Source of the DNA: Opitutia bacterium
GTDB taxonomy: Bacteria; Verrucomicrobiota; Verrucomicrobiia; Opitutales; Opitutaceae
Length of the DNA stretch: 64,000 nt
Assembly (NCBI GenBank): GCA_016187925.1
Contig: JACPIS010000023.1
Span: forward strand, 62,001-126,000
Reading direction: 5' to 3'
Shown here: piece by piece, positions 22,471 to 48,027 of the stretch
Position numbering within the stretch: position 1 is the stretch's first letter
How the letters are laid out: every line of letters starts with the position of its first letter
Position numbers and translations under genes: made by a program
The notes under the pieces: generated by a model
Seen by the model: only the letters and a program-made list of their open reading frames with translations
What the model was told of the DNA's origin: nothing
Databases searched by the model: none

Positions 22471-24249
<1,779 letters not shown>

Positions 24250-24276: not shown

Positions 24277-24302
24277 GAAGGGCCCACGTCCCCGTGGGCC
24301 GC
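24277..24302 (+). repeat. REP-like hairpin, GGAGGG family
   Basis: GAAGGGCCCACG, loop TCCC, CGTGGGCCGC: a perfect stem with the family's right flank. It is followed directly by the aspS terminator. Confidence 0.6.
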
Positions 24303-24334: not shown

Positions 24335-24394
24335 GGTGGAACGCATTGACCTCAATGCGTTCGAGGCAGCGCGTTGGGAGCAACGCGCTCCACC
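24335..24394. repeat. double-hairpin REP element, left of RAYT gene
   Basis: Framed by GGTGGA and TCCACC. The first stem is AACGCATTGA/TCAATGCGTT with a CC loop; the second is GCGTTG/CAACGC with a GGAG loop. Near-identical copies are at 24915 (overlapping the RAYT 3' end) and 35842. The layout is that of a REP doublet (BIME). Confidence 0.85.
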
Positions 24395-24467
24395 AAGGAT
24401 TGACCGCAACGTGTGCTGCGTGCAATGAGATCACCGCACTCCAGCGGGCCGGCGGCGTGCATTGCGT

Positions 24468-24929
24468 ATGCAAGAGTATCCTCGCCGGCTGCAGCATAAC
24501 ACACCCGCGTGGGTGAAGGACGGGGCCTTGTTTCACATCCGGGTTCGGGCGTCCGAGGAACAGAAGCGGTCGCTGATTGATGCCGCGCTTGGCCGTGAAC
24601 TGCTGGCCGCCGCGCAACGCTACCACGAGTTGAGTCGCTGGTGGTGTGAGCTGTTCCTGCTTATGCCGGACCATTGGCACGCCTTGCTCCTGTTTCCGCG
24701 TGAGCAGGGTATGGCGTCGACGATGCGCGATTGGAAGCGGGGAACCGCCCGCTTCCAAGGCGTGCTTTGGCAGGAGAATTTTTTCGACCATCGCATCAGG
24801 ACCAAAAAATCAGGCGAAGAGAAGTGGCGCTACATACGCCGCAATCCGGCGGCGAAGGGGCTGTGCGCTCGTGAAGGCGATTGGCCGTGGTGGTGGAGCG
24901 GTGCTCTCGATGAAGGTGGAACGCATTGA
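24468..24929 (+). CDS. RAYT: REP-associated Y1 tyrosine transposase
   Basis: 153 residues from ATG 24468 (an in-frame TTG lies 6 bp upstream). The HUH motif is H69-W70-H71 in LMPDHWHALLLF, and the catalytic Tyr is most likely Y122 in EEKWRYIRRNP, both typical of the TnpA-REP branch of IS200/IS605 Y1 transposases. WQENFFDHRIR is also characteristic of the branch. RAYTs cut and join single-stranded REP hairpins, are usually single-copy and do not behave as ordinary IS elements. Here the gene is bracketed by two copies of one double-hairpin element, and its last codons and stop lie inside the right copy. Confidence 0.88.
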   Translation: MQEYPRRLQHNTPAWVKDGALFHIRVRASEEQKRSLIDAALGRELLAAAQRYHELSRWWCELFLLMPDHWHALLLFPREQGMASTMRDWKRGTARFQGVLWQENFFDHRIRTKKSGEEKWRYIRRNPAAKGLCAREGDWPWWWSGALDEGGTH

Positions 24930-24976
24930 CCTCAATGCGTTCAAGCCGAAGCGCGTTGGGGTCAACGCGCTCCACC
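24915..24976. repeat. double-hairpin REP element, right of RAYT gene
   Basis: Same design as the left copy: GGTGGA, stem AACGCATTGA/TCAATGCGTT, spacer, stem GCGCGTTG/CAACGCGC, TCCACC. The first stem contains the TGA stop of the RAYT gene (24927-24929), so the element encodes the protein's last residues GGTH. Confidence 0.85.
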
Positions 24977-24999: not shown

Positions 25000-26493
25000 T
25001 CAAACCCCCAGCCGCTGCTTCAGAATCTCGTCGACCAGCTTCGGGTTGGCTTTGCCGGCGGAGAGTTTCATCACGGAGCCCTTGAGGGCGTTGATCGCCT
25101 TGGCGTTGCCGGCGCGCACCTGCTCGGCGGACTTCGGGTCGTTGGCGATGGCGGTGTCGCACCAGCCTTCGAGCTGGCCGGTGTCGGTGGACTGCCTCAG
25201 GCCCTTGCGGTCGACGACGGCGGCGGGCGTCTCGCCGGATTGGAACATCTCGGCAAAGACCACCTTGGCCTGCGTGCTGGAGACGACGCCCTGATCGAGC
25301 AACGCCACGAGCCCGGCGATGTGCGCGGGCGTGACCTTGCTGTCGGCGAGCTCGTGTCCGGCGGCGGCGAGGTCGCGCAGCAGGTCGTTCGTGATCCAGT
25401 TGGCGGCGGCGCCGGGCTTGGCACCGAGCTTTACCGCTTCCTCGAAGAAATCGCTGAACGCGCGGTCGCGGATCAGCACCGACGCGGCGGAGTAGGGCAG
25501 CGCAAACGCTTCGATGAAGCGACGCTGCTTCGCAAAGGGGGCTTCCGGCAGCTCGGCGGCGAGGCGGGCTTTCCACTCCGCGTCGATGCGCACGGGCATC
25601 AGGTCGGGGTCGGGGAAGTAGCGGTAGTCGTGCGCCATCTCCTTCGAACGCATCGCGGCGGAGCGGCCGGTCTCGCCGTCGTAGAGGCGCGTCTCCTGCG
25701 TGATCGTGCCACCGGAGGTGACCACGTTGATCTGGCGCTTGATCTCCGTGGCGATGCCGTCGCGCACGTAGGAGATGGAGTTGAGGTTCTTCAACTCGAC
25801 CTTGGTGCCGAGCTTCGTCTCGCCGACGGGGCGGATGGAGATGTTGGCGTCGCAGCGCATCTGGCCCTTTTCCATGTCGCAGTCGGAGATGCCGGCGTAG
25901 ATGAGCGAGGTGCGGAGCGAGGTGAGGAAGGCGAACGCCTCCTCCGGCGAGCGGATGACCGGCTCGGTGACGATCTCCATCAGCGGCGTGCCGGCGCGGT
26001 TGTAGTCGACGAGCGAGTCGTTGGCGCCGTGCGTGAGCTTGCCGACGTCCTCCTCGAGGTGGATGCGGGTGAGCTCGATCTTCTGGTGTTCGCCCATGAC
26101 GGCGAGCGATGCGCCCGGCAGCTCGATCTCGACGGCGCCGTGGCGGCAGACGGGCTGGTCGTATTGCGAGAGCTGGTAGTTCTTCGGGCTGTCGGGATAG
26201 AAATAGTTCTTCCGATCCCAGCGCGTGACCTGCGCGATCTCGCAGCCGAGCATCAGGCCGGTCTTGATGATGGCGTCGAGCGCCGCCTTGTTGAGCACGG
26301 GCAGGGCGCCGGGCAGGGCGAGCACGACGGGATCGGTGAGGGTATTCTCCGGCTGGCCGTAGCCCGCGGCGACGCGCGTGAACATCTTCGACGCCGTCCT
26401 GATCTGGACGTGCACCTCGAGGCCGATGACTGCTTCGTAAACGGAGTGATCGGAGTGGGACACAGAGACGGAAGGAGGGGGCACGGAGGTCAC
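25000..26493 (-). CDS. gatB: Asp/Glu-tRNA amidotransferase subunit B
   Basis: Kinase/tRNA-binding subunit of GatCAB, which amidates Asp-tRNA-Asn or Glu-tRNA-Gln. 497 residues. GatB hallmarks are YEAVIGLEVHVQI, YFYPDSPKNYQLSQYD, and the TRIHLEEDVGKL and LVDYNRAGTPLMEIVTEP motifs; the C-terminal YqeY/tail domain (about 350-497) is complete. The start is uncertain. GTG 26493 overlaps the upstream stop (GTGA), but the first dozen residues (MTSVPPPSVSVS) are encoded by a repeat that recurs untranslated before thrS; GTG 26463 is an alternative. gatA follows upstream after one intervening gene. Confidence 0.93.
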   Translation of the reverse strand: MTSVPPPSVSVSHSDHSVYEAVIGLEVHVQIRTASKMFTRVAAGYGQPENTLTDPVVLALPGALPVLNKAALDAIIKTGLMLGCEIAQVTRWDRKNYFYPDSPKNYQLSQYDQPVCRHGAVEIELPGASLAVMGEHQKIELTRIHLEEDVGKLTHGANDSLVDYNRAGTPLMEIVTEPVIRSPEEAFAFLTSLRTSLIYAGISDCDMEKGQMRCDANISIRPVGETKLGTKVELKNLNSISYVRDGIATEIKRQINVVTSGGTITQETRLYDGETGRSAAMRSKEMAHDYRYFPDPDLMPVRIDAEWKARLAAELPEAPFAKQRRFIEAFALPYSAASVLIRDRAFSDFFEEAVKLGAKPGAAANWITNDLLRDLAAAGHELADSKVTPAHIAGLVALLDQGVVSSTQAKVVFAEMFQSGETPAAVVDRKGLRQSTDTGQLEGWCDTAIANDPKSAEQVRAGNAKAINALKGSVMKLSAGKANPKLVDEILKQRLGV

Positions 26494-26867
26494 AGAGCGA
26501 GGCGACGTAGACCGCGGGTTAATACCGTGGAGCGGAAATTCATGAGCAACCCGATGTGGCAGCCGGTGAACTTCAGGTAGGTCAAGACTTGCGCGTCATG
26601 CACGTCAAGCAGTGCATCAACAGTCTTGAGTTCGACAACGACGAGACCGTTTACCAGAAAGTCGAAGCGGTAGGCGTCGTCGATCAGCAGATCCTTGTAG
26701 CGCACAGGGCACGATATCTGTTCTTCGAATGTCATGCCTCTGAGTTTCAATTCATGCGCTAGCGCCCGCTGGTAGGCCGATTCCAGCAAACCGGGCCCCA
26801 ACTCGCGATGCACTTCTATTGCGGCACCGATGATCTGCTCCGTCAATGTGTTGATCTCTGGGTTCAT
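26490..26867 (-). CDS. GxxExxY family protein (PD-(D/E)XK nuclease-like)
   Basis: 125 residues. The family signature lies in GPGLLESAYQRALAHEL, and the nuclease-fold core pattern is RFDFLVNGLVVVELKTVD with a following HDAQVLTYLK helix; an acidic residue and the ELK triplet match PD-(D/E)XK geometry. The biological role is unknown. Members are found scattered and often duplicated in environmental genomes. It sits between gatA and gatB on the same strand, and its stop overlaps the possible gatB start by 4 bp. Confidence 0.85.
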   Translation of the reverse strand: MNPEINTLTEQIIGAAIEVHRELGPGLLESAYQRALAHELKLRGMTFEEQISCPVRYKDLLIDDAYRFDFLVNGLVVVELKTVDALLDVHDAQVLTYLKFTGCHIGLLMNFRSTVLTRGLRRLAL

Positions 26868-31421: not shown

Positions 31422-31473
31422 GGAGGGCCCACGTCCCCGTGGGCCGCGCGGCCCGGCAGGAGCCGGGCCCTCC
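31422..31473. repeat. head-to-head REP-like pair, GGAGGG family
   Basis: Left hairpin GGAGGGCCCACG-TCCC-CGTGGGCCGC, right hairpin its inverse with a different stem (CCCGGC/GCCGGG) ending GGGCCCTCC. The stems differ but both pair perfectly, and flanks and loops are conserved. It lies 3 bp after the oxidase stop. Confidence 0.75.
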
Positions 31474-31492: not shown

Positions 31493-31573
31493 TGTCATTC
31501 TGAGCGCAGCGAAGAATCCACGTCGTCGAGCGCGGCGCCCTGCTTCTTTGGATTCGCTGTGCTCAGAATGACA
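31493..31573. repeat. TGTCATTCTGAGC dispersed inverted repeat
   Basis: Starts TGTCATTCTGAGCGCAGCG and ends GTGCTCAGAATGACA, with GAAGAATCC / GGATTCG inside. A second copy is at 47832-47919. Confidence 0.65.
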
Positions 31574-35568: not shown

Positions 35569-36008
35569 AGCGGGCGGCCAGCTGAAGCGGCTCATCCGGA
35601 GGATTCGCCCTACCGGGGCGAGGTAGCGCGCGGTGTTCGAGCCGGATTTGTTTCGGCCACGAAAAACACACAAATGCTTTGCCGGCGCGGGAGCGATGAT
35701 CGCGCGGCGATAACCGCCAGCGAGTGCCGTTGGCCGTCGGAGTTTTGTGCCATTTTGTGGCTGACACCTGCTTTGGCTTGGGCGCGAGCGAGCTCGCTGC
35801 TTACGGCTCGATGACACTAGCGAAAGATTCCGGCGATCGCGGGTGGAACGCGTTGACCTCAACGCGTTCGCCAATGAGCGCATTGGGTCAATGCGCTCCA
35901 CCTTGCGGCGTACTCGCGATATGGCCGATGGGCGCTGCTTGTCGCTCGGGGATTTGTCGGGCCTGAACTTGTGTCGGGCCGAGCCGAGGCTCGACGCGAG
36001 GTCGAGCC
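35569..36008. other. 440 bp intergenic region packed with repeats
   Basis: I see no gene. It contains a GTAGGGCGA-family hairpin (35589-35613, minus), a segment with CACGAAAAACACACAAA and TTTTGTGCCATTTTGTGG, a GCGCGAGCGAGCTCGC palindrome (about 35782-35797) whose relative is near 63501, the third double-hairpin REP (35842-35902), and the start of a GGCTCGAC hairpin. Confidence 0.6.
35842..35902. repeat. double-hairpin REP element, third copy
   Basis: GGTGGA, stem AACGCGTTGA/TCAACGCGTT, spacer, stem GCGCATTG/CAATGCGC, TCCACC. The two stem types seen beside the RAYT gene (CATTGA and CGTTG) have swapped sides here, showing the halves are exchangeable modules. Confidence 0.8.
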
Positions 36009-47771: not shown

Positions 47772-48027
47772 TGTAGCGGCGGTCTATGACCACAGCCGTC
47801 CCACAAGAACTCGTTTCGGTCCTCTTTTGCATGTCATCCTGAGCGAAGCGAAGGATCCGCGTGCTCGGGCGCGATGCAGGATTCGCACGCGTGGATTCTT
47901 CGCTGCGCTCAGAATGACAGGATACGAAGTTGGCGCGGGAAGTCGGGTGCGCTGTGGGATGTCTGTGGTCTATGACCGCCGACCAAATGCCGTTTGGAAA
48001 GACCGGCGGTCATAGACCGCCGCTACA
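47772..48027. repeat. repeat cluster between pyrD and cbiX
   Basis: Three elements and no gene: a TGTAGCGGCGGTCTATGACC hairpin pair (47772-47805), a TGTCATCCTGAGCG inverted repeat (47832-47919, second copy of the 31493 family), and a larger TGTGGGATG...CGCCGCTACA inverted repeat (47953-48027) built from the same GGCGGTCATAGACC core. The last ends 14 bp before the cbiX start and may act as its leader hairpin. Confidence 0.65.

Follow-up and report, generated by a model that had tools for sequence, protein, structure and literature searches.

The window, a stretch of 64,000 nucleotides from an Opitutaceae genome of 4.0 Mb, harbours a small RAYT (TnpA-REP) gene between the convergent genes aspS (named from its sequence; ends at 24249) and gatB (ends at 25000). 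The most likely start of its open reading frame is the ATG at 24468, with the stop ending at 24929; the TTG at 24462, upstream of this ATG, is a possible alternative start. The gene is bordered on both sides by inverted REPs, each with a GT(A/G)G head and an adjoining palindrome (Table 1). An earlier note on this DNA had described two near-identical hairpin doublets framing the gene, and these were indeed found where it had placed them, with a mutual identity of 90%. Each doublet (24335-24394 and 24915-24976) is built from GGTGG, a 9-bp stem and a 4-nt loop (GGTGGAACGCATTGACCTCAATGCGTT..AGCGCGTTG(4 nt)CAACGCGCTCCACC), followed by a short spacer and the inverted unit, with the GTGG feet facing outward. 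The chance expectation of the REP 27-mer, allowing up to 3 mismatches, was 0 in 100 shuffles. The stop codon TGA of the RAYT gene is provided by the downstream REP unit (GGT GGA ACG CAT TGA). A stop located within the downstream REP (24915-24929 in the window) was also observed in two relatives, L082 and L091, the proteins having GGTH or GGTR as C-terminus.

Table 1 Features of the RAYT locus, REPs lying in frame in genes, and REPs flanking the RAYT genes of the genome (plain numbers are window positions; gene names of REP-bearing genes are presumed)
Feature	Location	Strand	Sequence or support
REP unit, GTGG head outward, left half of upstream doublet	24335..24361	+	covariance model R1, 46.5 bits
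REP unit, head outward, right half of upstream doublet	24368..24394	-	R1, 43.3 bits
RAYT / TnpA-REP HUH-Y1 nuclease gene, 153 aa	24468..24929	+	NF047646 2.5e-20; 4er8 7.7e-6 by sequence; 4er8 Z 14.1 by fold
HUH motif codons H69-W70-H71	24672..24680	+	sequence; H69 and H71 invariant in 34 RAYTs
W101-Q102-x4-D107-H108-x2-R111, counterpart of E. coli TnpA-REP guide-contact region	24768..24800	+	alignment; E. coli residues from PMC6006769
Catalytic tyrosine codon Y122 (YIRRNP motif)	24831..24833	+	sequence; invariant in 34 RAYTs
REP unit, head outward, left half of downstream doublet	24915..24941	+	R1, 46.5 bits
REP unit, head outward, right half of downstream doublet	24950..24976	-	R1, 49.8 bits
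REP unit of dispersed doublet 11 kb off	35842..35868	+	R1, 48.2 bits
Partner REP unit of the 11-kb-distant doublet, 3-nt loop	35877..35902	-	R1, 40.2 bits
In-frame REP, uvrA	L192 3033-3089		
In-frame REP, methylmalonyl-CoA-mutase-like gene	L182 3059-3141		
In-frame REP, FAD oxidoreductase	L185 2999-3065		
In-frame REP, nuoM	L199 2995-3021		
In-frame REP, queA	L183 2975-3001		
In-frame REP, 8-oxoguanine-glycosylase-like gene	L187 2997-3023		
REP at start of purU-like gene	L184		
RAYT-flanking REP, window RAYT			GGTGGA
RAYT-flanking REP	C38:211k		GGTAGGGGC..
RAYT-flanking REP	C5		GGTAGGGCGAGTTC..
RAYT-flanking REP	C35		GGTAGGGCGGGGC..
RAYT-flanking REP	C9		TGTAGGGCGGGGTC..
RAYT-flanking REP	C44		TGGAGGGCCCGCG..
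RAYT-flanking REP	C27		CGTAGGCAGCGAGC.., read by eye
RAYT-flanking REP	C42		TGTGGGAGGGGCTTTATG.., read by eye

The encoded protein displays the HUH motif H69-W70-H71 and a single tyrosine followed by N-P (Y122-IRR-N126-P127), at the positions already given for it as a Y1 HUH transposase. Alignment of 34 RAYTs revealed M66, P67, D68, H69, H71, K90, W101, Y122, N126, P127 and W139 as invariant. In E. coli TnpA-REP the guide-contact region comprises W94, Q95, E100, H101 and R104 (PMC6006769); these are matched by W101, Q102, D107, H108 and R111, giving WQ and (D/E)-H..R, and the reading frame is intact with every catalytic and guide-contact residue present in that alignment. The NCBIfam equivalog NF047646 (REP_Tyr_transpos) matches with 72.8 bits, below its curated cut-off of 80, and the protein is placed outside this equivalog, in the wider RAYT kind only. 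The Pfam Y1_Tnp profile matches weakly. For the confident AlphaFold2 model (mean pLDDT 90), E. coli TnpA-REP bound to REP (4er8) ranked first in Foldseek (E 1.5e-8) and VIA-align (Z 14.1, 142 residues, 20% identity) alike, above the IS608 and ISDra2 structures (VIA-align Z <= 11.3); the fold is nearer to TnpA-REP than to IS200/IS605. In motif terms the protein (DHWH, WQ, YIRRNP) falls outside Quentin subclass 2.5, Bertels group 3 (DH[LF]H, WQ, YI[VI]ANP). It agrees with Quentin subclass 2.7 ([ND]HVH, WQ, YI[LR][NQ]NP, GT[AG]G REPs) in WQ and in the D at the E100 position, while DHWH and YIRRNP fit only partially. The marks of IS200/IS605 class 1.1, Y[IV]ENQ and high-copy near-identical transposase genes, are absent: the window RAYT has YIRRNP and occurs in the genome as one copy, the next best relative being 44% identical. 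Its codon usage is atypical, with a GC content of 61% against 66% in neighbouring genes, and the codon-usage gene caller passes over it.

Counting over the whole genome relied on a covariance model of one REP unit. At E up to 1 it gave 60 matches, from which 4 overlapping reverse-strand echoes were removed, leaving 56 REP units at 37 places; the lowest-ranked few are weak and many units are degenerate. This number lies below the 100 copies that REPs usually exceed, 'usually' being no strict criterion (PMC2817692). The REP is thus dispersed in its host genome, mostly outside genes (28 of the places are intergenic), and the outcome of only three copies is excluded. The third copy that had been reported 11 kb away is present (35842-35902), as one of many and not as a special element. 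All doublets with both halves detected are in head-out order. The bare pattern GGTGGANCGC was too weak for counting (146 matches versus 81 in the control) and was replaced by the covariance model; a loose GTAG-plus-stem pattern, with 3 matches versus 3 in the control, was uninformative on the copy numbers of GTAG families. Within the stem 99.3% of cells are paired, 4 pairs have two-sided changes, and the covariation score was reached by 0 of 500 shuffles; as the sequences were preselected for having a stem, this score speaks for the family without proving it independently. The better argument is that the stems differ between genomes and yet pair in each.

Placement was analyzed with genes called by a simple codon-usage caller. 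With only ~18% of the DNA non-coding, 28 of 37 REP places are intergenic, 16 of them convergent, 12 co-directional and 0 divergent (p ~0.0007 for the absence of divergent places and 0.0002 for the convergent excess, against a null made of the window's own gaps only). By this mapping to gene ends, which the earlier note had proposed, the intergenic copies are located at gene 3' ends. Called genes are overlapped at 9 of the 37 places, of which C9:119786 (E 0.42) is doubtful. Several copies lie in frame within genes, leaving the reading frame unbroken and translating as VERVDLNAL or, reversed, as RVEVNALHP. Several of the overlapped genes are conserved ones and presumably, judged from their sequence, uvrA (L192), nuoM (L199), queA (L183), an 8-oxoguanine-glycosylase-like gene (L187), a methylmalonyl-CoA-mutase-like gene (L182), an FAD oxidoreductase (L185) and, with the REP at its start, a purU-like gene (L184).

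Comparison with congeners revealed presence and absence of such insertions. G000, G004 and G005 carry the in-frame insertion in the mutase gene, all with the same inner spacer, and it is missing without trace from G007, G010 and G011. The insertion in the FAD oxidoreductase gene occurs only in G000 and, in compound form, in G011, and is absent in the other congeners compared. Furthermore, a 21-nt inner spacer is common to six dispersed doublets with 57-95% identity, where the 99th percentile of shuffled sequences is 52%. By this shared spacer and the congeneric presence and absence, the doublets behave as inserting units. Since the mutase insertion is common to three species, some REP copies are old, and the system may or may not be active today. 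At the RAYT locus itself, aspS and gatB are likewise convergent in G001 and G012 but lie only ~110-150 bp apart, with no RAYT between them. A conserved aspS-RAYT-gatB arrangement was considered and rejected, because the nearest RAYT relatives sit elsewhere and the junction is empty in these two genomes. G009 carries a different RAYT (41% identical) after gatB, between two identical GGTAG doublets. The GTAG RAYT L033 (C5:84k) is apparently in the same place as L124 of a congener, the REP stem being changed by paired substitutions from TTCTCCGAA to TCGTCCCGA; this pair appears to be a vertically inherited contrast to the window RAYT.

The genome harbours 10 RAYT-like genes, 8 of which have their own flanking REP, and the feet of these eight RAYT/REP pairs are GTAG, GTGG and GGAG. 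The GTAG paralogue at C38:211526, 44% identical to the window RAYT, has a REP in which loop and upper stem are nearly the same as in the window REP. REPs of the window type also flank the nearest relatives that the window RAYT has in other genomes. In a set of 36 RAYTs, drawn from Opitutaceae and from a few further phyla, distances between RAYTs correlate with those between their REPs (Mantel rho 0.42, p 0.001), also within the GTGG clade (0.45, p 0.001) and the GTAG subset (0.58). The RAYT phylogeny called for earlier shows that the GTGG foot marks one well-supported clade: 17 of the 18 GTGG RAYTs share one branch (support 100/99), with members from Verrucomicrobiota, Lentisphaerota and one Acidobacteriota record, and the foot label requires 2 changes over the tree, where shuffled labels averaged 12.6. 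The pairing of the window RAYT with its REP is thus supported by clade-level co-evolution. RAYTs of the GTGG clade share the Y motif YIR[RKQN]NP and carry, on strand beta-1, H25-x-R27-x-R29 (residues counted from TTG 24462) in place of the F-x-T-x-C/N of GTAG RAYTs; beta-1 is among the foot-contacting regions of E. coli TnpA-REP (PMC8266576). A rule that H-x-R-x-R means GTGG was rejected, as L120 of G008 has GTGG REPs with F-x-T-x-G, and the signature may reflect clade history rather than determine the foot.

The third foot type belongs to the RAYT on contig C44 (L036/L230, G000:C44:261880-262467), which is flanked by REPs with the foot GGAG. This REP has 111 matches genome-wide with <=3 mismatches, versus 1 in the control, and is more abundant than the window REP family. 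Copies occur in the window near 31424, 31651, 32635, 36567, 41581 and 59778. Relatives of the C44 RAYT in six congeners (53-62% identical) are likewise flanked by GGAG REPs; this is a separate RAYT clade, and the foot of its REPs falls outside the GT(A/G)G rule. The available text of earlier work names the foot variants GYAG, GYRG, GTRG and GTMG (PMC3733652) and GT[AG]G, CnGA and 'atypical' (PMC6006769); a search of main texts found no mention of a GGAG foot. A degenerate GGAG copy is located at 24277, just upstream of the window RAYT.

The verrucomicrobial host suspected from the letters is indeed an Opitutaceae genome, and the GTGG foot, which had been put forward as a signature replacing the usual GTAG, is real. 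It is not new: the REP head has been defined as GT(A/G)G since 2010 (PMC2817692), and according to the available text of Di Nocera 2013 (PMC3733652) Opitutus terrae is REP-rich with several families (GTAG-17, -19, -20), of which GTAG-20 mostly has GTGG. REPs within genes, both uvrA genes included, are also described there. Opitutus terrae thus resembles this genome as a member of the Opitutaceae with several REP families, GTGG elements and REPs in uvrA and other genes. It differs in being another genome with another RAYT set, and the available text of that paper contains neither a link between foot and RAYT clade nor congeneric presence and absence. The novelty is smaller than had been claimed. 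Several RAYTs in one genome, each with its own REP, have also been published (PMC6006769). Fresh are the eight RAYT/REP pairs in one genome, the beta-1 H-x-R-x-R of the GTGG clade and the RAYT clade with GGAG-foot REPs.

Among characterized systems, the RAYTs and REPs of Stenotrophomonas maltophilia (group 3, subclass 2.5; PMC2817692, PMC8266576) are similar in the perfect 8-9 bp stem right after the foot, the short loop, the inverted doublets and the many RAYTs in one genome, each with its own REP; there the foot is mostly GTAG and the motif YI[VI]ANP, whereas here they are GTGG and YIRRNP. E. coli TnpA-REP (4er8; group 2, subclass 2.2) shares the HUH/Y1 fold and the guide region with W-x and acidic-H-R, but its REPs have a bulged stem and strictly GTAG, and it has a foot-contacting C-terminal tail that the short group 3-like proteins lack. 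IS200/IS605 elements (IS608, ISDra2) share the fold, the HUH and Y1 chemistry and the hairpin substrates. They differ from the window RAYT in their Y motif; here there is one transposase copy, with short repeats dispersed in trans.

The locus is very probably a REPtron, in which a RAYT gene lies between members of the REP family that its enzyme processes. The RAYT profile match, the 4er8 fold match and the 56 REP units agree with this layout, as proposed before. TnpA-REP enzymes recognise the folded REP strand, cut adjacent single-stranded DNA and can rejoin the ends, as in vitro work on three RAYTs has described (PMC8266576). By analogy the window RAYT would act as a dimer and bind the REP when this is single-stranded and folded, recognising its 5' G-GTGG foot, the 9-bp stem and the 4-nt loop. 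Y122 would then cut single-stranded DNA near the REP, retain a 5' phosphotyrosine and rejoin the ends. The head-out pair (REPIN, 57-83 bp) would move in trans as one unit, by the window RAYT rather than a paralogue, while the RAYT gene stays single-copy; new REPINs would persist mainly downstream of genes or in frame inside proteins. In the Marinomonas Mb enzyme a change from GTAG to GTGG permits cutting at CC, and a G3-G4 guide rule is the basis for predicting the cut site (PMC8266576); for this reason natural GTGG REPs are predicted to be cut at CC. Tabulation of the 20-nt flanks of 55 REP units, to the left and to the right, revealed no dinucleotide at a fixed position outside the REPs, so that the CC site remains a prediction; a mild inner pattern in the flanks stems from the shared spacer class.

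As a rival explanation, the unit could be an autonomous IS200/IS605 insertion sequence of the ordinary kind, its hairpin ends being repeated by happenstance. Such an element would also have a Y1 HUH fold and flanking hairpins, and would account for the aspS-gatB junction being empty in G001 and G012 and for the unusual codon use and GC content (0.61 versus 0.66) of the RAYT gene. This explanation is very unlikely: a single RAYT copy stands against 56 REP units, the Y motif is YIRRNP instead of the class 1.1 Y[IV]ENQ, 4er8 (Z 14.1) is a better structural match than IS608 (<=11.3), and the ends are symmetrical head-out doublets without distinct left and right ends. No tnpB was seen beside the window RAYT. 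Also very unlikely is a role of the doublets as RNA hairpins at 3' ends, where they would terminate transcripts or stabilise mRNA and be maintained through selection on adjacent genes, the RAYT being a bystander. The strong convergent 3'-end bias and the lack of divergent copies would suit such a role, but not the in-frame copies within uvrA, nuoM, queA and others, the inner spacer conserved at unrelated places, the clean insertion and absence among congeners, or a REP that changes with its RAYT across lineages. Such a role has been proposed for REPs in other species in the available text of PMC3733652, and a secondary RNA role following insertion is compatible with the REPtron reading.

It could further be argued that the locus is a relic, the RAYT having formerly moved these REPs and now being inactive or acting elsewhere, so that a paralogue or nothing moves them today. 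The modest copy number with many degenerate units, the insertion common to three species and the coexistence of eight RAYTs in the genome point that way. With an intact reading frame that retains all catalytic and guide-contact residues, flanking doublets that are still 90% identical, and nearest relatives elsewhere that carry the same flanking REP type, this is improbable, and the REPtron reading is preferred.

More tentatively, it is possible, if rather doubtful, that the REP foot in the genus is an evolvable guide that switches with its RAYT, with a deep GTGG clade (beta-1 H-x-R-x-R for F-x-T-x-C) and a separate GGAG clade. If true, the eight RAYT/REP pairs would provide a natural panel of specificities, with joint changes of foot, cut site and protein residues. 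These data bear on how a RAYT reads the foot of its REP, with which of its parts, and on whether the cut site follows from the foot. Eight RAYTs with their own REPs (GTAG, GTGG and GGAG feet), and congeners with or without the insertions, offer ready-made comparisons for this, and as a member of the GTGG group the window RAYT makes the CC cut site a testable prediction.

Two minor elements were observed in the window. A GxxExxY/PDDEXK_3 nuclease-like gene (26490-26867) lies between gatA and gatB, as it does in G008, G009 and G010; it was not seen at this place in the remaining congeners compared. A perfect 30-nt repeat (TGTCATTCTGAGCGCAGCGAAGAATCCACG) occurs at 31493-31522 and 47890-47919 in opposite orientations, and a similar sequence adjoins the REP doublet L197 3067-3123 on contig C19.
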